From the NCBI GenBank assembly GCA_963931865.1, contig OZ007512.1:9433160-9497159 (forward strand): DNA of 64,000 nucleotides, in the 5' to 3' direction. This document shows positions 49,999-64,000 of this stretch, piece by piece (position 1 is the stretch's first letter; every line of letters starts with the position of its first letter). The translations under genes were made by a program, and so were the position numbers. The DNA comes from Axinella damicornis (taxonomy: Eukaryota > Porifera > Demospongiae > Axinellida > Axinellidae). The notes under the pieces were generated by a model that was not told the origin of the DNA, did not search any database, and saw nothing but the letters and a program-made list of their open reading frames with translations.

Positions 49999-50144
49999 CT
50001 GTAATATCGGACACAAGTGGTGCACTTTCACTTCGGACATTAATTGTAGATCGCACAGTGTCTCATGTCATTTTTACCACAAGCTCCTCCATAATTATTC
50101 AATGTCTAGGTGTTTAAGTTGCAAATGGTATGCGTCTTTAAAAT

Positions 50145-50440
50145 AATTGATGCTGAGATTCTTTTCCGAAGTGTTTGTGGTGCAGTTTCACCGCAAATCG
50201 GAAGGCTTCTTCCAAGCTTCTTCCAAGAATCGGACGGTTTCTTCCGAACATAATGCAGAAGACTTCTTCGGAAGAGTGCTACATAGCTTTGTATGTAAGT
50301 ACCTAAGTTTCCGAAAAATGGTGCAGTGTCGCTTATGGGTCTTCCAGGGCTTCATTATGCCTACTGTAGCTGCTCTTCCAGAGCGGCATTTGTCGTGTAA
50401 ATCTTGTGCTGTGACGGAAGGGGTTCTGCAATGCATGCCA
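50145..50440. repeat. Dispersed CTTCCGGA-type repeat (copy 3)
   Basis: CGCAAATCGGAAGGCTTCTTC and many CTTCCGAA/CTTCCAGA motifs, between kinase E's last exon and kinase D's first exon. It forms most of the 499-base intron that would join the two kinases. Confidence 0.55.
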
Positions 50441-50497
50441 TTAACCCCCTAAAGACACATACTGTACAAGGGGAGGAGCTACCTACTACACACTCAC

Positions 50498-51481
50498 AGT
50501 CTCCACTCAGAGCCTTCATGATCTCTGGAAAACTTGGCCTAGCCTGTGGTGCACAAACAATCACATTCCACGTACGTACTAATGAAATTATCAACAAAAG
50601 CTGTATAACATGTAGATTAGTAGTACATACAGGATTGTGATCAGTATGGTCACATGCACAATCTTACGGTGTAATACGCAGACCGTAAAACAGTACCTAA
50701 GGGGTACGTATGTACTCAGTACTATACATTGAGAAATAATAATGCCCCTATACGTAATAAAGCCACGCCAGCATGTACGTTTTATGACCATATGTAAATA
50801 CTAGCCTCGTTCCCAGGCAACCCCTTTTCTCTCAATTTTTGTTCACGCGTGGGAGAGCCTGGGAACGAGGCTACGTAAATACCAGTTTGCAGTACATTAT
50901 GTTTTTAATGCACGAGGGAAATCTAGTTAACGGTCGAGGGTGAGATAATGCACGAGCCAAAGGCGAGTGCATTATCCACCCGAGACCGTTAACTAGATTG
51001 CCTGAGAAGGGCGGCGGCACGTATTTACAAATGGGGGGGGGGCAAGATATATTACACACTGCCGGAGACAGTGCATAGAGGCACGTAGCGCTGATCAGTC
51101 CCAGCGAAGCGCGGAACAAATTTTTCGCCTTCATTTTCAGCTATCAGGATGGGCTCTAGTGGCACCTTCGTGCTTTTGCACTGCAAGTTCCAGATGTATG
51201 AGGATTGCAGGTCCCGGGGCCGCCGTGCTTCTTTCTTGCTCAAATTTCGCTCACGAACGTAATACGTATGTACACGGGTATACTAGATTGCGGTCTCGTT
51301 CCCAAGTCGTTCGGTTATAGCTAGCCAGCTGCTGGCTACGTCGATAGCTGGACTTGTGCCAGATCAGCAACTCGATTCGCGTACATCGTACGTACACAAG
51401 GTTAGCCGAGTCAGCCTAGTACTAAGTATAGGGCAGCCGTTGGCTGTTTAATAGGTTTAATAGTAGCTAGCTGCTAGGAGT

Positions 51482-51513
<32 letters not shown>

Positions 51514-52865
51514 TTGCCCCCCCCTGTGCCGCCGCCCCTGCCTGAGTGCACTAAACCCCGTAATGCACTGCAAACTGGTATCTAAACTACTTAGTGCAAC
51601 TCACTGACCCGAAACAGCCATTGGTATTTGCTTTATCCAGATAATGCACACTAAAGTGTGCATTAAGCGATTTAATGCTCAGTCATGTAATCGATTCTGA
51701 GGCATCTAATTCATTGAGGGTCACGTGAGCAGCACTAATGACAGATACAGCCACAATGTACCTTTGGATCGTGTTCCCAGCAGCACTTAATCAGGTTGGC
51801 TAAACGTGGGTCACATGTCTCAGGAATGGTTGGGTGCTGTGTAGTGATAAGGTGACAGAAAATCATCACATTCCAGCCACATTGAATTAGTGGTACAGCT
51901 TTGGTAACACTCAGACTTTAAATCGTGTGAGTGTGAGTAACGGATGTGGGGGACTGGAGGCACCTGCATGACCTTTGTACTTTACTACACCCTTCGAAAT
52001 TCAAATTCCATGAAGAATGCTCAAGAAAGTTGAGCACAATTATAACGGAACGGCGTGTCTATAGTTTGAAAGCGCACACAGTCCAGTTGAATAGCGAACA
52101 GGGCATTGCTAACACCTAAGTTAGTATACATCCGTACCAGAATGGTGAGGGGCATTCTCTGAAGTGACTGGTACCTTCTGAATCACCCACCTTGCCTTCC
52201 ATTGTCATAGATGGTACCAGGAGAGGAAGCACATCAGGGAAGGGTAGCTGTTGGGTTGCTATCTCGAATAACAGTACTCCGTACGAGTAGACATCACAGA
52301 ATTTGGAGACTTTCTCTCTTCGTAGCATCTGAGAATTAAAAGGAAGACAATCTCTAATAGGTAGGAAAAACACATGCAGTTAGTGCAGTAAACGACAAAT
52401 CAACTGCCTTGTAGCAGTGTTCATCGTCCCCATACCTCTGGAGCCATCCAGGCATATGTACCTACGGCCGTGGTCTGCCGTGCGGTGTGGTCCAAACTCC
52501 GGGCAGAGCCAAGATCACAGATCTGAGACAGAAAGGTTGGCTTGTTTACTCAGGACTAGTTATACCGCCCACGGTTCAAGCTAGAGTAAAATGTTGCAGT
52601 TTGCTAGGTACCTTCGCTTTCAGTGCAGATGTGAGGACAACTGCAGGGGCAAAGAGATAATACAATCTTCATCACGGCTTTCAGAGTATTGAGCAGCATA
52701 TACCCAGTACACAACATTCCAGTTTGCAGGTTTGAAGTTAGACACTTGTTTAAGAATGCACGCAATCTGTATATTCCATCACCTAAACAAGAAATGAAAC
52801 TTTCTTACCGTTGCTGGACTTCAGATCTCTGTGAATAATGTCCCGCTGGTGGAGGTACACCATTC
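50498..52865 (-). CDS. Kinase E: C-terminal two-thirds of a first kinase domain, N-lobe missing
   Basis: Minus-strand exons: 52865-52809, 52640-52612, 52522-52436, 52328-52191, 51836-51762 and 50543-50498. They encode IIHRDLKSSN, VVLTSALKAK, ICDLGSARSLDHTAR, AVGTYAWMAPE, CDVYSYGVLLFEIATQ, HPTIPETCDPRL and ARPSFPEIMKALSG. The three exons that carry the glycine loop, VAIK lysine and hinge in every paralogue are absent upstream. Reverse-transcriptase relic sequence begins about 115 bases 5' of the first exon. The last exon resembles kinase A's (ARPSFPEI-EALSG) and not the terminal type, and its GTGAGT donor joins in frame to kinase D. Without an N-lobe, E cannot be a catalytic kinase by itself. 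Confidence 0.75.
50803..50873. mobile_element. TAGCCTCG-family MITE
   Basis: TAGCCTCGTTCCCAGGCAA ... GCCTGGGAACGAGGCTA. It is flanked by TGTAAATAC (50794-50802) and CGTAAATAC (50874-50882), 8 of 9 identical. Confidence 0.75.
50876..51588. mobile_element. Terminal-inverted-repeat element in a kinase E intron
   Basis: The left end ACCAGTTTGCAGTACATTA is mirrored by TAATGCACTGCAAACTGGT at the right. An internal palindrome around GTTAACTAGAT lies at 50925-51000 and poly-G at 51484-51512. A segment at 51062-51235 is the reverse complement of one at 28280-28440. Confidence 0.55.
51484..51512. repeat. Poly-G tract
   Basis: Twenty-nine consecutive G inside the element at 50876-51588. Confidence 0.95.
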
Positions 52866-52978
52866 CTGAGAATGGACAAAGAAAAGCCTACATATAACAT
52901 ATAGGCGAGACTCCACATAATGTAATCATTGAATGAGCTGCCTTCCATGTGAAATCATCTGCACATGCTCGGGGGATG

Positions 52979-54116
52979 TCATATCGATGTTACGTAACGG
53001 CTGCATGCACTACAGGTACTGCTTGTAAACTGTACTTGATAATGTAGAGACAGAGGTATTATCTGACACAGTGCTGGAACCAATCGTGTGGTGGACAACA
53101 ATGCAGAGACAGAGGATTTGGCAGCTTGGAATCCCCATTGGCAGTTAGACAGTGGACAGTGCTCTCTAAGATGGTCCGAGATTAAACAATGGAAATGCTT
53201 TTCAAGGATCTTACTGAGGATTGGTAGCAAGGATATTGGCCTGAAGTCATTTGGGCCTTTAGCACCCTGTTTCTTCGGGATGGGTACGACATTAGAGCAT
53301 TTCCATGCAGTAGGTGGCCGACCCAGTTGAATAGAGAGATTGAAAAGCTTGGTGATGGAGGGAGCTATCGCATCAGCAGTATATTTCAACATGTGAGCAG
53401 AGATACCATCTTTGCCACTGGCCTTGGCAGTCTTGAGAGACTGCAACATATCCAAGACCCATTCCTCACTGCAAAGGATGTCGGGGGTGTGATGCAATGC
53501 AGAGAGATTACAGTCCAGTGGATGCAATGCTGGGACCGAGTTGTTGAAACAACTTGAGAAAAATGAGTTCAGCCTTTGCCTCATCAGAATCGTGCATTAC
53601 ATCATTGTGGGTCAGAACAGGGATAGATGAAGATCTCTTGTTAAGATGCTTGACTGCCTTCCAAAACTGTCTGGGATTGGATGGGTTAAGTTTGTGAAAA
53701 TATGCAGACTTTGCAGTTCGAAGCTCCCCGACCACTTTGTTTCTAGCCTGGCGAAATCTGGCATAGTCCTGATGTGTCCCACTTCTTTTTGCTCTTTTGA
53801 ACAAGGTATTTCTTCGACGCATTGATCGGGTAATGCCTTTACTCAGCCATGGGAGGTTTCGGCGTCTTGGCGGAAGAACTCTTCTTGGTATACATTCCTC
53901 CATTATCTCAAGGAACTTTCCCTGCCAGTTCAGCCACGAAGAATTGATGTCATCACTGAAGAGTTCATCCCAATTTGTGTTGCCGGCTAGTCTAGTGTTG
54001 CCAAGTCGTATAATCATCTGTGGGCCACAACTACTACCAATGCACTGCAGCACAGTGCGCACGGGGTATGTGCTCTGCAGAGCTCTAGTTGTATTGATGG
54101 TTGACAATACTTCCAC
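52979..54116 (-). pseudogene. Non-LTR retrotransposon fragment (linker and N-terminal reverse transcriptase)
   Basis: The first frame (54116-53508) contains LPWLSKGITRSMRRRNTLFK and NPRQFWKAVKHLNKRSSSIP, typical of the endonuclease-RT linker of CR1/Jockey elements. After one frameshift the second frame (53584-52979) has KASGKDGISAHMLKYTAD, NVVPIPKKQGAKGPNDFRPI and LLPILSKILEKH, which are RT fingers motifs. It stops before the YADD catalytic box, so both the endonuclease and the RT palm are missing. Same strand as kinase E. The missing 3' half is unusual for ordinary 5' truncation and suggests a later deletion. Confidence 0.8.
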
Positions 54117-54524
54117 TCATTTTTGCTGCATGAATTCACCCACGCAAACCAAATTCATGAAACATTGTTGACTTCAGGGGCTCATAGCTCCAAATCTGAT
54201 GGCCATGATGTGGCTATTTTCTGAAAAGTACAGAGATGGGGCTTTTATCTGGCGCAGGTCCGTCATCATAGCACCCTGCGTTCTTGCACTACGGGCGCTT
54301 GAATCTGACCATCTTGAGACGTTTCAAGCTAGACGGGCCCGACTTTACAGCGTTCTCACCCAAAACGGGAGCAGTCTCAACTGTCTTGATAGCTAAATAG
54401 ACTCTTGACCACCAGAGATACACATATCTCAAAGGATAAGTTGTTCGCATGAACGCATCTTGGAACAGTCGGTGCCAAAATCATAGCTATTTCAGGAATT
54501 GCATAACTCCGAGTTCATAATGAA

Positions 54525-54755
54525 TAAGGTAGGGCGGGGTAATTCGGGCCACGGGGTAATTCGGGCCACTTCTACGGTGGCAACAGGAAAGAAGCATCCA
54601 TTGGATTCTTGCTTCTAGTGAGTTGTAGGCAGGTTTAGTCCCTGGATATATATGGCCATAAGTTTGCCTAAAGTCTGTCCGTTTTTAGTTACCGTTGACC
54701 TGAAGTTGAAGTGGCCCGAATTACCCCGTGGCCCGAATTACCCCGCCCTACCTTA
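54525..54755. mobile_element. 231-bp MITE with GGGGTAATTCGGGCCAC repeats
   Basis: The inverted arms of about 48 bases begin TAAGGTAGGGCGGGG and contain two GGGGTAATTCGGGCCAC units each. It ends 154 bases before the start codon of the kinase-kinase-death gene, so it may lie in that gene's promoter or 5' leader. Confidence 0.8.
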
Positions 54756-54862
54756 CTAACAGAAAGGTAACGGACGAATACGAACCTCCGTAAGCTTGCA
54801 CTACCTCCTCGTTCCCACACCCAAACAACCCCAGCGAAGATCGATACTCGCATGATCGAGAT

Positions 54863-54881
54863 TAGCCTCGTACCCAGGCTA
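54863..54881. mobile_element. 19-bp minimal TAGCCTCG element with perfect 9-bp duplication
   Basis: TAGCCTCGTACCCAGGCTA is flanked by GATCGAGAT at 54854-54862 and at 54882-54890. It consists of little more than two fused termini. It lies 28 bases before the ATG at 54910. Confidence 0.7.
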
Positions 54882-54909
54882 GATCGAGATCAGCACAGAC
54901 AGCGATAAC

Positions 54910-57900
54910 ATGGCTGATTCGCGCGTCGAGCCAGTGCTTCATGACGTACGCCCTACTGGTAAACAATTGCATGCGGGAGCCTCCGACGTGGTGGAGGAGG
55001 TAGACGTACGGGGAACGATGTGTGTCGCGAAACGTCTTCACGAGACATTGTTAAGCGGAGACATTCCAAAGACGACTCGGAGGCTGCTCTCACAACGATT
55101 TGCTTCTGAATGCGAGATGATGAGCAAGTTGCGACATCCGCACATTGTAGCATTCCTTGGGACATCATACTTGAACGGGTCTCAGGCGCTAATAATGGAG
55201 AAACTTCCCTACAGCCTTTCTCGGCTTTTACTAGACTGGTGTGTTGAAATTCCCTTGTGCTTGAAGTGGTCAATACTTGGTGATGTGGCCCGAGGTCTGA
55301 TCTACCTGCACTCCCTTTCTATTATCCATCGTGATATTTCGCCGAGTAATGTTCTACTTACTTCAGGCTTGGAAGCAAAAATTGGTGATTTTGGTGTTTC
55401 TAAATCTGTGATGCGACCAGTCACTGACAGCTGGATGCGAGCAGTCAGCTGGATGCGACTTGAAGAACACACACAATGCCCAGGCACGATTATGTTCATG
55501 CCACCAGAGGCACTACAAGTGCCAGCAGAATATGGCACTCCACTTGATATCTTCTCCTTTGGTGTTCTTGCTCTTTCCACTTTGACTCAGGAGTTTCCAG
55601 GTGACATTAGAGGAAATACTTTTATCGGAGAAAATGGTAAGATCATGGCTCGTTCAGAGGTGGAGGTACGTGAAAAGTATTTTGCGAAGATCTACTCTCA
55701 ACTGACACGCAGTCACCCTCTCGTGCGAATGATTGAACAGTGTTTGGCCAATTATAGCAAGAGACGCCCAACAGCAGAAATGGTTCTACAGATTGTTAAC
55801 AAGGTGAACAGTGTTTCTGAAGATGACCAATTGAGCGCCAAAATCAAGACAATGGAGATGATAAGGAGTAAGGATCAAGGACTGCATGAGGAAATTGAAA
55901 AGGTACCTACTTTAGTGTACACTGTTATTTGCGGTTACTGGATTGAGCATACTGCAGATTTGGCGGGTAGCTATCAGGTTTTTTATACAATTGGAGCTAA
56001 TCATAGTTGTTATGTATCAATGCAAGTGGCAACCATATATACTTACCTGTTAACATAGGACATTCCAGAGAAGGTGAAACCGTATCATAGGAAAGCTAAA
56101 CCAACTGGGAAAACGTTAGGACACGGAACGTACGGCACCGTCTTGGAAATGGAATCATGTGGAGAAATACTTGCTGGGAAAGTGTTCAAAAGGATCACGG
56201 CTCATAGTAGTTCACAGATTCAGGACAAGTTGTACACAGAAATAAGAACAATGGCAATATTCCAACACCCAAATTTGGTTCGGTTCATAGGGTTGTGCTT
56301 CCTGCCTCACCTATCTGATTTTCCTGTACTCCTGATGGAAAAGATGATGACTGATCTGCATACCTACCTTATGGATCCACAGAATCAAACTCCACTTGCA
56401 AGAAAAGTCTTGATTTTGCGTGACGTGGCTAGTGGTCTAGAATATCTCCACCAGAGAAGACATGCACTTGTACATCGCGATCTCACATCTAAGAATGTAC
56501 TACTCAACGCAGAGCTAACGGCCAAGATAGGAGATTTTGGAACCGGAATAATTATAGACTTAGATCCTGAAGCAACTCCGGATACACTTACTACTCAACC
56601 AGGCACGCTCGGATACATGGCACCTGAAGCCATGACTGGACATGCGCAGTACGACATCAAAATCGACATCTTTGCATTCGGACACTTAATGTTGTTTGCT
56701 ATTCTCCAGACCCAAGTACCGTTACTACCACCTACGTACCCTGATGAACAGGGATCATTGCATCCACGCTCTGAAGTTAAGAGACGCCAGAAATCCATTG
56801 ACAAAGCGAGTGAATCGTTGGGAAAATGCCACCCTCTTGTGGTGATGCTAAAGCGCTGTCTTCACAATTTACCTGGACAGCGGCCTTCTGCGAGTGAGAT
56901 CCTAACCAAGATACAGCAAATCATTTCAGGTATGATTTTCAGATGTAGACTCCTTGCTGGATCTGATGCTCCAGCTATACAGTTACAACATTTAGCTATA
57001 GGATATCTATGCAGAGTGAATAACATGACTGTTGGTACCAATCTGATGCAATATTCATGTATGGGTACACTTGGGTAAATATTCATTATGCTTAAGTTGT
57101 GACAGCTGTGTCCATAAGAAAAGTACCTTTCCAGGTTGGGTGAGATAAGATAAGCTTGATACAACTTTGCTGCACCCAAATTGTGGGGAAAGTCCCTATG
57201 GGACACCACAGCTAATTAAGCTTAACTCGATTTCCTGTGGGACTTCTAATCACGTAGCTATGGCGATGAATAGCCGGAATCCAGTTTTGGGCAAATACGG
57301 CCGCTATCAGGGTTGATGCTTGCATAATTTCTGGGCGCATAGAGGCACTATCAGGGGTAAAGGGTTGGTGGGTGTGTCCACCCAGCTGTCTCACCCAAGA
57401 GGAAGTGGATGTCACATGAGCTGGCTGGGCGGGACTTCGTACAGCCCAGCACGTGGGCTGGCTGGGCGGGACTTCATACAGCCCATATGGGCTGTACGAA
57501 GTCCCGCCCAGCCAGCTCACGTGATACGCCGGATAACATGCATGTTATCCGGCGTATCACGTGTGCACGCCCAGCACTGGTGCCAACCCTTTGGGTAAGT
57601 TACCGCATAGTTGTCCATCTCTAAGTCGTCGTTCGAGTTCGTGCAGGTTAATAGGACTTGGGTTGCGCATGCGTGTCGCGGCCGCACATGGCGCTTAGTC
57701 AGCAATTCTATGTGTGTGAAGTTGGGTTGACTCAGGTGGAAATTAGGTGAAACCGCACCCTCTGCTTTGTAGTGCATGCACTACGTGCCACCCTGGGGTC
57801 AAAGTACATAATGGCTAGCTCAGTTTGTGTCGCTTTAGCTTGTGGTAGTAGTTGATAGTGCCAGAGGCAGCAGTTGGCCTACCAGTGTTCTTGTATAACA

Positions 57901-59787
57901 GTGCTGCTGACCTGCTGGTGTTGATTTTCTGACAGAAACACCTACAAAAGTTTCCTCTGTGAGCTATAAAGTGTCACAACCAAACTAAGCAGCTTTTAGC
58001 GCAATCCCCGAATTGAATCTGTAACGTAGTTGCAACCATAGGGTCAATGGCATGAGCAGTAGAGCACAGTAACAGACAGACACATGAACAGACAGACAGA
58101 TAGACATAGACAGGCAGACAGGCAACAGACACGCAGACAGACAGACTGAAGGATACAGACTGACAGACACACAGGGTGACATATACAACCCGAGCATGTG
58201 CTAGGCTTAACAAGTTGACTGTTGTAGCTACGTAGCTATAACTAGATTCCTATGGGGATTGATATAATTGGGGCGAGCCTCAGCGAGCCCCACGTAGACG
58301 AGTTTGCTGTAAATTTTCCCTAGAGTTGCCATAGCTACATTTACTTCCATAGAAAAGTGTAGCGAAGCTGAGCGATTGACTTAGGACAATTAGAATTTTC
58401 ATATACTTTTTCTTACACAACACTTGCACCACAACCTACAACGACACTGCACTACAATCACACATCCACTTTTATACAAAAATCACAATAGTTCTAGGGC
58501 AGAGGCCAAATCGTTACAAGCACAAAGCCACTGACCACATAACAAGTCTGTACTACAAACCCAATACATTGTACATAATGTTCAAAAGCACAGAAGACTC
58601 TAACCACACTCAATACAAAAAAGGAACTACTCACTGAATGCACAAAATCCACAGAATGAATGCACAAAGAAATACACTGAATGCCCACTGAATGATCAAA
58701 GAAAAGACAAAAGAAACAAATGCCCTATACAAAATTAATTACAATGCATCATAAAGCAAAATCAGTGCAACTTTGCGACAAAAAGTGTGTAATTTTTTCC
58801 CAAACTGCACGGTTATTGTAGCCCGAGGGCCATCAGAAATTGCACGCTTACTAAGCAGCCGCGTCGCACACCAACTAATCAGGTCAAGCTCCGCCCTAGT
58901 AACCAGCATCTGCGTCATGGCTTTGCTTCATTTTCGTTACCAACATGAAAATGACTGCTGTATTATGTATGTGAACGCTCGCATTGTTTAGCTACTACTA
59001 GACTGCCCGAGCAGAAGAAGTACTGAATGATAGTGTGGCGAAAGTGGTGTCACAGAAACGGTGGTGCTAATCATTGTGCCATACTAGCGCTGCAGCCGTA
59101 CTGTTCATGCTGTTATGCACACATAGGCTCTGTGCTGCTGTTTTGGGACCCTGCATGAGATGTGTGTCTGTGTGACAGTGATTAACTGTATTCTGTGACC
59201 TGATGTGTTATGTTCAGTCGCATTCTGGTGACGGTCATGTGCGTGCAAAATGCTCCACGTTCTGCATTGCACTCGCTCAGGCTCACCCTACAATGCCATA
59301 CATTCTTCTAGTCACCATAGAGTCTACAGAAAGTACCATTGTCTCTAGCTTCTCCACATGCCTCAGTATGCCTATAAGACCTGTTGAATATGGTGTTGCT
59401 GCTTCCTTTTGTGTCTTAGATATGCAACAGAAGGCTCAAGAAGAAGTCACCGTCAAAAGCAAGAATACAGTACATGATGAAGTCACACTTGATAAACTGT
59501 CGTTAATGAAGCTACCAAATGGAGAGCGGGTTAAGATCATTGAGACCATAGCAAAGGATTGGAGGATAGTCGGATGTCAACTTAACTTTGACCGAGCTGG
59601 CAATCGACTGAGTTTAATCAATAAGCAGGAATTGAACAATCCTATTGCATGTTGCGAGGCCATGTTTCAGCACTGGTTGAATGGGAACGGGGTGAAACCA
59701 GCTACATGGAAGACACTAATAGACATTCTGGAAGACTGTGACTATATTGCATTGAAAGAGCAAGTTGAAAGAGCGTTCTCACATTAA
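54910..59787 (+). CDS. Tandem kinase-kinase-death-domain protein (3 exons, ~743 aa)
   Basis: Exons 54910-55902, 56059-56929 and 59420-59787; phases 0 and 1 match exactly and the stop is TAA. Kinase 1 (residues ~15-300): the glycine loop is degenerate (AGASDVVEEV), but CVAK (K41), HRDISPSN (140-147), GDFG (159-162) and PPE (198-200) are present, as is a conserved RRP. Residues ~301-331 are charged and may be a short coiled coil. Kinase 2 (~345-621): GHGTYGTV (352-359), K372, HRDLTSKN (470-477), GDFG (489-492) and MAPE (518-521), all intact. The C-terminal death domain (~645-743) has DKLSLM, AKDWRIVGCQL, FQHWLNG and ATWKTLIDIL. Both kinases share the ARSEV/PRSEV and HPLV segment and differ from the MLK-like kinases around them. 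Likely a cytosolic adaptor-kinase. Kinase 1 may be weakly active. Confidence 0.85.
57417..57563. repeat. Nested palindromes in the last intron of the kinase-death gene
   Basis: GAGCTGGCTGGGCGGGACTT occurs directly repeated at 57418 and (shortened) at 57448, and inverted at 57491-57516. Next to this, 57518-57563 is a 46-base perfect palindrome centred on ATGCAT (half-site CACGTGATACGCCGGATAAC). Short ORFs across it are shadows. Confidence 0.85.
58065..58180. repeat. (GACA)n microsatellite
   Basis: Imperfect ACAGACAG repeats of about 110 bases in the last intron of the kinase-death gene. Confidence 0.9.
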
Positions 59788-61364
59788 TAGCACCGAATAT
59801 TGTTTTTGTTTTTTTCCTGATTAGCGTTAATTTTATCAATTATGCATTTAAAAGCTGTTGCTGTGAGCTGTGTTTATCATCCTAATTACTTTGTATTCCT
59901 TTGCTTGAGATTGGTAGTAGCAGGAGCGCATTCGCTGCCTTCGGCGGCTCATGCACTCCTGGTACATGTAGTAGGGTTCCACCTATATCATACATGTACT
60001 GGCATCGGTATCGGTCCCAATATATACCAGCAGTGGTGAGTATGATCAGTTATTGGAATTCTATTGCCCTATGACATCTGAGCAATACATGATGGCCAGG
60101 CATGTTAAGAGGGGTTTTGGGTGTACATATTTTGTATGAATGCTGTTACACAATCAGAATCTAAGACTACGTATAAGCAAAAACCGAAATGAATGAAAAC
60201 AACTGTTACTTCTGGTGCTTGTGTTTATTGTGGTGTGGTCTTGTCCAGACATCGAACCACTACATTTCGTGTGTACATATACTTGGTTCTAGCTGGGATT
60301 AGGGAGAAAGAGGTGCATGCATGTGGATGGTACTTCCCCCTTCCTATAATTATCATCATGATCGATCACCTGGCTACATGCATGTTTAATTTATGGAGTG
60401 TTACTAGTATTGCAGTATAGCCCTAGCTTGGTGGTATAGCTCTGGTATATACAGTACCCCTCTAAAGAGTAGTGCAATCCATTTCTGATGGAATATAGCC
60501 TCGTTCCCGGGATGGGGCCTGCATGGGAACAAGGCTAAATGGCTGAGCAAAGACTTCACAGTAAGTGCATGTGGTACAATGAACAGATATTATGTTTGTT
60601 TTCTGACCTGGGCTGCTGGCAGTATCAACACTCAGTAGTGGCCAAGTAACAAACAATATACCAAGTTGGATGACTTCTCTGAGTTCAGCACACAGTAGCT
60701 ACAAGTGTTGTGCTAGAGGTTGTTCCGCTTGACACATGTAAAAGTTAGCAATGGCAGCCAATCGAAGACAAATGAGCCATATGTGTGCATGCATGGTGAG
60801 TCCCTGAACATCCTTAAAATATTTGTGACTGCTCAACCCATAGACACAGGACCCCACTACGTAATTATCCCCATGGGGTATATAAGTTGTAGTGGAATAT
60901 CCGGATAAGTGCACGCTCTAAGCTGGGTACATCTAGATCTTGTTTCTGTTCTTTCTGTTGTGCGGCCACCAGTTACGTCCATGCACTGGTAAATTAATAT
61001 TGAAGTCAATATTGGTCAGCGCAGGACAAACAAAGAGTGATGACAAAGTTACATAACTGTGATTAGACTATGGTATGCATAATGTGCTTTGACATTTTGA
61101 ACTTAAAATCTACTATACACTTAAATTCATACTTCATACTGACAAACTGAAAGCCCCCATTGTCTTAGCTGGTTTTTGCACTCAAGCAGGTCTAGCTCTT
61201 AGCTGTTTAGAGACCTTCGGGATGCACCTATAATCACCTCGAGCTTCGCCCTCTAGGTAGCATCCCTCAGGTCTCTAAAACAGCTAAGAGATCTGCTTGA
61301 GTGCATGCAATAACAAAATGATGCAAAATTAATGGAACTCTAACTGGTGCAATCACTTTGCAGT
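59788..61364. other. Intergenic stretch between the kinase-death gene and kinase F
   Basis: No supported gene. It holds a short TAGCCTCG-type pair at 60498-60537 and, from 60629, the duplicate of 44490 onward, including the hairpin copy at about 61180-61300. No clear AATAAA follows the stop at 59787. Confidence 0.5.
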
Positions 61365-63575
61365 TCAGGTGCTCAAAGTTAACTGGATCTCTCTGAAAGT
61401 TGGTCTGGCCTGTGGTACAGAAGATACAAGAAACATTAACTGTATACAGTGTGAAGCATATACACAGACACAAGTGACATGACTAACGTGTGAGTGACAT
61501 TTCCAGTATAGGTTTATCAAGCTTCCAGGCCGTACGGCTATACTGGAACATGTTGACATCAATCGGCATTGCCTTATTTAACCATAATTATACAGCCAAA
61601 TGCACCTGGAGAATACCCATTAGCATAAGGAGGTTTAGTAAAATAATTCCTCAATCACTTGCATGGTATACCAATCCTACTTCTGGCTCCCCACTGTATA
61701 ATTACACAGAGCTCAAGAACCTGGGAACCAGAACCATACTTAGACTACGTAGGCCCCCATGTACCTTTGGATCTTGTTCCAAGCACCATTTGATCAGGTC
61801 TGCTAAATGCGGATCACATGTCTCGGGAATGGTTGGGCACTGTGTGGAGTGATAAAGTGGCAGAGTCCTCCATGCAGCCACACGTACAGTTTTAGAGGTA
61901 CAATTTCTGGCTTGTTACATTGGCCTATGGTATACGTACAGGCCTCTAAATGCGATGTACGTTTGCGGAACTGTTCCGTCGCAACGCCGGATTTACGTGA
62001 CAAAGGAAACTCCAGACTTAAACACAGCTGCGGAAGACCTAAACGAAGCTCTGGAAGATCTGTAAGCAAAGCTGCACCATTTTTCAGAAACTTAGATACA
62101 TACGACGTTCAGAAGAAGCCTTCCAGTTTGTGGTGAAGCTGCGCCGGAAAAACATTCTGAATCTCGGCATCAAGTTTAACGACGTGTATACCATACAAAA
62201 ATGCAGCTTTTATGTAATCAAGTGTACATTACATGTACGTACATAGTATAGGAGTACCTGCATTTGCAATTAATTGTAAGCTGGCTTGAGATGCTTGTGT
62301 GCTCATGAAATCTGACATAAACAAGCACTTGCTTACGTAGCTGGTGAGTTGTGCTGTTACTGCTACTGTACAACTTAGTACCAGAATGGTGAAGGGACAT
62401 TCCCCTATAGTGATTGGCAACTCATTGACTCTCTATCCCAATGGATTACAGATAACAACCTTCAGTTTAATGGTGACAAGTGTAAATATATGCTCATTTC
62501 CCGGAAGCGCAGTCATATTCATCGGTCGTCACCTATCTTATTGAATGGTACTCCACTGGATAGAGTTGAGGTGTTCAAGTACCTTGGGATCCACATATCT
62601 TCTGATCTCTCGTGGTCCCATCACATACAAACGCTCTGTTCTAAAACTAGGAGGATGCTTGGCCTTCTATACAGAAGATTTTATGCTGATGCTGACCCCT
62701 TCACACTGAGACAGTACTACCTCTCATTTATCCGGCCGCACTTGGAATATGGTTGTGAGGTCTGGGACCCACACCTAGTGAAGGATATCAATGCATTAGA
62801 GGGAGTTCAGAGATTTGCTAGTAGAATTTGCTCAAAGCAGTGGCGCCCCCAAGTTGAGTATCCAGCAATGTTGGAGTCACTCCATATTCCCCCCCTGGGC
62901 TCGAGAAGACTCAAAATGAAAGTATGTCTGCTTCACAGAATGATTCATGGGCAGTCCATTTATCATGATCCTCCATTCGACTACAGAACCGCCACTTTTG
63001 CTTCTCGCTCTGTAAATCCATTATCACTTACCAGGCCATTTGCTAAACATAATTATTACCTGTACTCTTATTTCCCTAGCACTATTTCCTTTTGGAATTC
63101 ACTCCCATATCATATTGCTGCACTTCCTTTGAATTCTTTTAAGTCTGCACTAGATAACTATGTCTAAGGATATGTATCATGTATTAGCATAAATTGCTAT
63201 TGTATGTATCCATGCATTTGCAGAATATATTATAGAAAAAAAAGAAAAAAAACTCCCTCTGAATCACTCACCATGCCATCAGCAATCATAGCAGGTACCA
63301 TGATAGGAAGCACATCAGAGAATGGTAGTTCTTGAGTTGCCATCTCAAATAATAATGTCCCGAATGAGTAGACATCAGAGGATTTGGAGGCACTTTTCCT
63401 TCGCAGAATCTGAAAAACAAGAGGACAATATTTAATAGTTCTGAAAATAAAATTAATGCACTAAACAGTACATTCTATCGCCCCCTACCTCTGGAGCCAT
63501 CCAGGCACATGTACCAACAGCCGACATCCGCCGTGTGGTGTGTTGCAAAGTCTGAGCAAACCCAAGATCACAGAT
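61365..63575 (-). CDS. Kinase F: partial MLK/ZAK-like kinase, near-identical to kinase D
   Basis: Minus-strand exons in the window: 63575-63489, 63409-63272, 61839-61765 and 61409-61365 (TGA). They read ICDLGFAQTLQHTTRRMSAV, then CAWMAPE, ILRRKSASKSSDVYSFGTLL, PTIPETCDPHL and ARPTFREIQLTLST. N-terminal exons lie beyond position 64000. The intron after 63272 contains a LINE insertion starting 20 bases past the donor. The insertion does not touch an exon but places a sense-opposed element close to the splice donor, so splicing could be affected. The exon end changed from GGCAAG (kinase D) to GGCATG, a missense change and a weaker donor context. Confidence 0.75.
62424..63167 (+). CDS. C-terminal part of a non-LTR reverse transcriptase
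   Basis: The open frame is intact from the truncation point to a stop at 63167 (247 codons). It contains SQWITDNNLQFNGDKCKYML, VEVFKYLGIHISSDLSWSHH, QYYLSFIRPHLEYGCEVWDP and a VQRFASRICSKQW segment, the region just after the YADD box through the C-terminal domain of CR1/Jockey-clade RTs. The palm and endonuclease are missing, so it is not autonomous. The lack of stops or frameshifts agrees with a recent insertion. Whether it is the same family as the relic at 52979-54116 cannot be judged, because the two fragments do not overlap. Confidence 0.85.
   Translation: MDSLSQWITDNNLQFNGDKCKYMLISRKRSHIHRSSPILLNGTPLDRVEVFKYLGIHISSDLSWSHHIQTLCSKTRRMLGLLYRRFYADADPFTLRQYYLSFIRPHLEYGCEVWDPHLVKDINALEGVQRFASRICSKQWRPQVEYPAMLESLHIPPLGSRRLKMKVCLLHRMIHGQSIYHDPPFDYRTATFASRSVNPLSLTRPFAKHNYYLYSYFPSTISFWNSLPYHIAALPLNSFKSALDNYV
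62424..63251 (+). mobile_element. 5'-truncated CR1/Jockey-type LINE with A-rich tail and target duplication
   Basis: Copy 1 of the duplication reads GGCAACTCCCTCTGAATC without a break. Here GGCAACTC is followed by 828 inserted bases ending in an A-rich tail and then ACTCCCTCTGAATC. ACTC (or AACTC) is thus duplicated. Truncation at the 5' end, the A-rich tail and a short duplication are the marks of target-primed reverse transcription. The insertion is younger than the segmental duplication. Confidence 0.9.
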
Positions 63576-64000
63576 CTGAGAAACAAAGGTTGATGTGTTT
63601 ACACAGAGACTATTATACTCTAGATGTGCCAATATGGGCTTTTATCGATATTCCGATAATCCGATTATACCAACAGATATCTGCCGATACCGATAACCTA
63701 TCTGATACTGTAGGTTCTCGTGTTTGTCTTATACCCTGTGAAGTCTTTTGGCCACAGCTCACTGCAAATAGCAAAATTTGGATCCTCTGACTAAATAGAA
63801 CTCCTAAATTAGCGACTTCTTCCCTTGACCCATCATCCTATAGTTTGTAACAATCACTGCACTGATAATGCTAGTACGTGGTTATGCAATACGCATGCTC
63901 CATTTATTGGCCGAGTTCTCAAATTTTATCGCCAGGAAGGTGATTATCAGCCCAATACTGATATCCAATTATTGGTACATTACTAATACGTACTCCACAC

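Follow-up and report, generated by a model that had tools for sequence, protein, structure and literature searches.

Toll/IL-1 and TNF signalling are built around proteins that combine a kinase with a death domain, namely IRAK and RIPK1. The IRAKs carry an N-terminal death domain and one kinase, and RIPK1 has a single kinase and a RHIM-bearing middle part. A degenerate kinase placed ahead of an intact one is known from JAK and GCN2; in JAK, FERM and SH2 domains precede the pseudokinase-kinase pair. Here we analysed a gene located at positions 54910 to 59787 of a 64,000-nucleotide stretch of the genome of the sponge Axinella damicornis (G000:C8:9433160-9497159, hereafter the window), in which two kinases are followed by a death domain. 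The searches of its own genome covered 226 Mb in 120 contigs.

Joining the segments 54910-55902, 56059-56929 and 59420-59787 yielded one frame of 743 codons followed by TAA. Both introns have GT-AG ends, with phase 0 for intron 1 and phase 1 for intron 2. An earlier sequence-only reading had proposed three exons with these phases and about 743 codons in one frame, which proved to be exact. Its proposal that the product contains two kinases and a death domain was borne out by Pfam, which scored the exon 1 kinase at 116.3 bits and the exon 2 kinase at 126.3 bits; the Death match in exon 3 reached 27.1 bits, and 23.2 bits for the whole protein, the cut-off being 22.6. With NCBIfam, only kinase matches were obtained, all far under their cut-offs. 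In profile comparison, the death domain came closest to the solved ones of FADD and RIPK1 (E = 6.8e-6 for RIPK1). The order kinase 1-kinase 2-Death is real and lies in one spliceable frame, and the gene is real by its anatomy. As the best overall explanation, to which we assign a probability of about one half, the gene would encode a 743-residue cytoplasmic signalling kinase of the TKL type scaffolded by its death domain, with kinase 2 as the effector and kinase 1 as a degenerating regulator. In the same explanation, the kinase 2-death unit would have been inherited as a module within a lineage-expanded family, probably of sponges, and also occurs behind ankyrin repeats. The features of the gene are as follows:

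54910..55902 (+): exon 1, with the start codon and kinase 1 (residues 1-331), ending in a phase-0 donor
54970..54993 (+): glycine-loop region of kinase 1, HAGASDVV, degenerate
55030..55032 (+): lysine of the VAK motif of kinase 1, kept
55327..55335 (+): HRD of kinase 1, kept
55387..55395 (+): DFG of kinase 1, kept
55903..56058 (+): intron 1, 156 bases, GT-AG, phase 0, open in frame up to the TAG of its own acceptor
56059..56929 (+): exon 2, kinase 2, with the first Met at exon residue 31; the paralogue exon is 78% identical
56119..56136 (+): glycine loop of kinase 2, GHGTYG, canonical
56473..56481 (+): HRD of kinase 2
56533..56541 (+): DFG of kinase 2
56930..59419 (+): intron 2, 2490 bases, phase 1, with palindromic repeats inside; site and phase are kept in the paralogue
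59420..59787 (+): exon 3, with the linker, the C-terminal death domain and the stop codon TAA
59542..59769 (+): death domain, Pfam match, residues 663-738

The joining of kinase 2 to the death domain is well supported by comparison with related sequences. The genome was searched with the window protein, which gave 66 matches (60 of 970 candidates scored), and a paralogue was found at G000:C8:11409400-11411299 (L011), on the same contig and 1.9 Mb away. Besides the kinase 2 exon listed above, this paralogue has a death exon that is 67% identical to that of the window; both exons lie on the same strand, separated by an intron of 634 bases, and the exon 2 acceptor as well as both sites of intron 2 fall in identical codons with identical phase. 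Nucleotide similarity between the two loci spans 56062-56932 and 59373-59769; it therefore matches exon 2 within 3 bases, and at exon 3 it sets in 47 bases ahead of the exon and stops 18 bases short of the exon end. Outside the exons and their edges, only a mobile-element copy and a second copy of the death exon are shared with the paralogue region. A similar junction is present in the database protein P0121 (JGI, 898 amino acids), which carries ankyrin repeats, a kinase and Death in one frame, the Death match (20.8 bits) being just below the Pfam cut-off. A single alignment of P0121 with the window protein runs across the kinase 2-death junction (433 positions, 45% identity, 7 gap positions), and the kinase-to-death linkers are similar in length. 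The like length of this linker and the unbroken alignment count against the presence of hidden exons between kinase 2 and the death domain.

Comparison with the paralogue gave ratios of nonsynonymous to synonymous substitution (dN/dS) below 1 for both shared exons: 0.44 for the kinase 2 exon (95% interval 0.29-0.68; none of 2000 resamples at 1 or above) and, by a narrow margin, 0.52 for the death exon (0.29-0.95; 34 of 2000). Kinase 1 has no close copy with which to make this test. These ratios, together with the three intact exons, make it very improbable that the gene is a duplicate that is unexpressed or free of selection, as might be thought from the location of the family in multigene arrays, from a likely broken copy of the death exon near the paralogue, and from the repeat elements beside exon 1 and within intron 2.

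Other proteins also combine the two domains. Kinase followed by Death was found above the Pfam cut-off in P0010 and P0018 and below it in P0014 (16.2 bits), while in P0013 Death (19.2 bits) stands ahead of the kinase. When window residues 560-743 were used as the query, one protein, again P0121, was retrieved at E <= 0.001 (among 377 candidates). The genome of A. damicornis contains at least 150 Death stretches over the Pfam cut-off (150 of 980 candidates scored). Ten kinase loci of 9 to 10 kb were inspected, and a match to the death exon of the window was detected near the kinase in five of them, downstream at L039, L042, L043 and L044 and upstream at L048; within the loci L045, L046, L047, L049 and L050 no such match was present near the kinase. 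At L042-L044 (near C1:17.84-17.90 Mb), the match begins 1.5-1.8 kb beyond the kinase. The region L048:60-5202 carries ankyrin repeats, Death and kinase on one strand; its Death-kinase order is reversed with respect to that of the window and is the same as in P0013, and the three parts may belong to one gene or to two. Among the best 120 of 1770 protein matches, the named relatives of the kinases included proteins of the sponges Halichondria panicea (P0042) and Sycon ciliatum (P0118), and also of plants and one oomycete; taken with the abundance of Death stretches, they are suggestive of a sponge.

Regarding the junction between the two kinases, exon 2 has no start codon ahead of residue 31, which is beyond the glycine loop, and the in-frame TAG of the acceptor lies directly upstream; exon 2 must therefore be spliced to an upstream exon. 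Exon 1 is located 156 bases away with a matching phase 0, and a splice from exon 1 to exon 2, as inferred from these features, is likely. In nine database proteins (P0001-P0009), two kinases likewise follow each other in this order within a single frame, with 37-41% identity to the window protein over 80-84% of its length. These frames close with LGK or LGE and a further tail, with no death domain in frame; judged from the protein letters, these tails look like run-on past a G/GTRAG donor after kinase 2, and a further exon is possible. Among the own-genome matches scored, no other pair of kinases lies as close as that of the window (overlapping pieces of one kinase excluded); the next-closest pair, both of the kinase 1 type, is on C5, about 2.4 kb apart. 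The distance of 156 bases, the lack of a start codon before the glycine loop of exon 2 and the same tandem order in one frame in nine proteins also speak against a different arrangement, namely two genes or alternative 5' exons, in which exon 1 would encode a stand-alone kinase (about 382 residues with intron 1 kept) and the kinase 2-death part would usually be spliced to a different exon upstream. In favour of this arrangement, a retained intron 1 could be read through as far as the acceptor TAG and would give a tidy kinase 1 product, the phase-0 acceptor of the paralogue is preceded by 13.4 kb with no kinase 1, and loci with a single kinase 1-type match are common in the genome; we nevertheless consider it unlikely. 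Neither AATAAA nor ATTAAA occurs in intron 1, but this is no argument, since both are also absent from the 613 bases past the stop codon of the gene.

The sequence-only reading held that the two kinases are different, and indeed they are 33% identical and lie on opposite sides of a tree split supported at 100/99, which assigns them to different subfamilies. On the same grounds, a recent internal tandem duplication was rejected as their source; each of them has closer relatives at other loci of the genome. Both fit the TKL group. The best solved relatives of kinase 1 are IRAK1 and IRAK4, followed by RIPK1 and others, whereas the best solved matches of the whole protein fall over kinase 2, with TNNI3K first and then others including IRAK4. 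No RIPK appeared in the best 60 of 2437 solved-structure matches of the whole protein.

The initial alignment left out P0050, P0052, P0064, P0071, P0076, P0079, P0116, P0117 and the proteins ranked beyond 60, except P0118 and P0121. The first tree was built with the proteins to P0049, P0121 and 28 own-genome kinases, 13 rows being dropped; the later trees, among them the one with the 100/99 split, were also without P0007, P0034, P0042, P0044, L023, L037 and L040. When kinase 1 and its counterparts in P0001-P0009 were tested as one clade, the first tree gave p = 0.163, and p = 0.238 was obtained without P0007. For kinase 2 together with L011 and the counterparts, the value was 0.246 (without P0007). 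A single clade is thus rejected for neither kinase, but neither of these clades is present in the best tree. A separate origin of the window tandem and of P0001-P0009 was considered and dropped: the kinase 2 clade had p = 5e-10 with L011 outside the group and 0.246 with it inside. Window kinase 2 and L011 with P0010, P0012, P0013, P0014, P0018 and P0121 alone gave p = 0.113, and in a wider set of 16 rows they fall on one side of a branch with support 93/75. The tip branch of kinase 1 is 1.04 versus 0.14 for kinase 2, the latter being short in part because of the 78% identical paralogue in the tree, and the placement of kinase 1 carries long-branch warnings.

With respect to the catalytic motifs, kinase 2 is canonical (GHGTYG, AGK, HRD and DFG), and in kinase 1 the glycine loop is replaced by HAGASDVV, with two of the three glycines lost, while VAK, HRD and DFG are intact. 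The difference between a degenerate and a canonical loop had been correctly noticed in the sequence-only reading. None of the 28 other aligned kinases of the genome has a loop as degenerate as that of kinase 1; in five of them (L029, L031, L032, L035 and L038) only the third glycine is missing. All nine proteins P0001-P0009 retain HRD and DFG in their second kinase. In their front kinase, the HRD aspartate is missing from seven (P0001, P0002, P0004-P0007 and P0009) and the DFG aspartate from four (P0004, P0005, P0007 and P0009), and by its motifs this front kinase is a pseudokinase in seven of the nine. The earlier suggestion of a regulator/effector pair is thus favoured by the loss of catalytic residues in the front kinases of related tandems, but the Lys, HRD and DFG kept by window kinase 1 do not speak for it. 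The intact VAK, HRD and DFG would instead agree with two effectors, both catalytically competent and phosphorylating each other or different substrates; given the loop devoid of two of its three glycines, the longer tip branch (1.04 against 0.14) and the missing HRD aspartate in seven of nine tandem relatives, we find this doubtful. We also propose, tentatively and with rather low confidence, that, in an animal lineage of early origin, a JAK-like pseudokinase-kinase switch may have evolved separately within the TKL kinases and become coupled to an assembly domain of the death fold. This domain would cluster the protein and kinase 1 would gate kinase 2, the front kinases representing successive stages of catalytic loss and the window gene an early one, with the loop lost and the catalytic residues kept.

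Under the preferred reading of kinase 2 as the effector and kinase 1 as its degenerating regulator, the death domain would, by analogy with RIPK1 and IRAK complexes, dock onto or co-polymerise with other death-domain proteins, and the at least 150 Death stretches of the genome make potential partners plentiful. Such docking would cluster several copies of the protein, and the clustered kinase 2 could then be switched on by trans-autophosphorylation and relay a signal with an immune, stress or cell-death output. Kinase 1, its glycine loop broken, would bind ATP poorly, and its main role would be that of a platform from which kinase 2 is regulated. A diverged second kinase would in this gene stand in front of the kinase 2-death unit, instead of ankyrin repeats. 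In a study of sponges, Death-domain genes, kinases and ankyrin proteins were among the genes that respond to microbial signals (PMC6208332); this gene list fits an immune setting and is silent on the window gene itself.

Several observations weigh against this reading. The splice between exons 1 and 2 is a prediction from the sequence, and a transcript that kept intron 1, whose frame is open up to the last codon, would give a stand-alone kinase 1. No kinase 1 match was found within 13.4 kb upstream of the kinase 2 exon of the paralogue (L041 and L039), which indicates that members of the family need not carry kinase 1. Since it keeps Lys, HRD and DFG, kinase 1 may be active. The death-exon match at only five of the ten loci means that many related kinases may be without a death domain, and the predicted model of the death domain itself is of low confidence (pLDDT, the predicted local distance difference test, of 57).

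Additional elements were observed around the gene and its paralogue. Just upstream of exon 1, positions 54525-54755 hold a short element with inverted ends of 51 bases (98% complementary), which looks like a non-autonomous DNA transposon; a copy that is 95% identical lies near the paralogue (L039:1506-1744). Within intron 2, nested near-perfect palindromes with arms of 37, 37 and 26 bases occupy 57412-57566. An open frame at 52979-53596 (-) has a sub-threshold match to the reverse transcriptase RVT_1 (19.9 bits; cut-off 29.6) and is perhaps a retrotransposon remnant. It was the one match in a Pfam analysis of ten other open frames of the window, and an Rfam scan of 50000-64000 gave no match at the gathering threshold. 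The extra death-exon copy near the paralogue, at L039:687-998 (-), is 58% identical to that of the window and lies about 6.4 kb from the paralogue kinase exon on the opposite strand; no kinase 2 match is present on its strand within the 10 kb locus, the open frames listed for the locus include none of 90 codons across it, and it may be broken. About 1.3 kb downstream of the paralogue death exon, on the same strand, L040:593-1408 (+) encodes a kinase nearer to window kinase 1 (43% over 221 positions). Dense arrays of kinase matches occur at G000:C5 19.48-19.76 Mb, C8 11.48-11.60 Mb and C9 10.74-10.76 Mb; most of these matches fall in the half of the query that holds kinase 1, which points to a lineage expansion.

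The sequence-only reading had presented the gene as an undescribed signalling protein. This was too strong, since kinase-Death and ankyrin-kinase-Death proteins with the same kinase type exist, as well as kinase-kinase proteins, but the full kinase-kinase-Death order was not seen elsewhere. This is a weak absence: the comparison covered the best 120 of 1770 protein matches, and gene models in databases frequently break off at introns. None of these 120 bore a precomputed Pfam Death annotation, a label that misses weak matches, as the Death domains of P0010 and P0018 show. In full-text literature searches, which mostly do not cover subscription papers, the order appeared in no title or abstract opening.

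Among known systems, IRAK and insect Pelle resemble the window gene in uniting kinase and death domain within a single protein, and kinase 1 is closest to IRAK1 and IRAK4 among solved structures; however, the death domain of the window protein is C-terminal, unlike the N-terminal one of IRAK. In RIPK1, as in the window protein, the death domain stands C-terminal to a TKL kinase, and the death domains match by profile, but RIPK1 has one kinase and the window protein has two, of which kinase 2 is nearer to TNNI3K. The kinase 2-death linker gave no Pfam match at E 0.01, a search that short motifs such as RHIM can escape. The likeness to JAK and GCN2 is one of logic only, with no FERM, SH2 or RWD detected in the window protein by Pfam at E 0.01. 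P0001-P0009 share with it the succession of a kinase 1 type and a kinase 2 type, without Death in their frames. In P0121, P0010, P0014 and P0018, the same kinase subtype is followed by a C-terminal death domain, as in the window; these proteins differ at the front, where P0121 has ankyrin repeats (no ankyrin match was obtained for the window protein, Pfam, E 0.01), P0010, P0014 and P0018 have nothing, and the window protein has a second kinase. No known scheme is overturned by this gene. With its varied fronts (none seen, ankyrin repeats or a second kinase), a single kinase-death module illustrates the assembly of such signalling kinases beyond model animals, and the front kinases, whose catalytic motifs range from kept through partly lost to lost, offer material on how a kinase turns into a regulator. 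The kinase-Death half is of a kind with several members, and the front kinase is the unusual addition.

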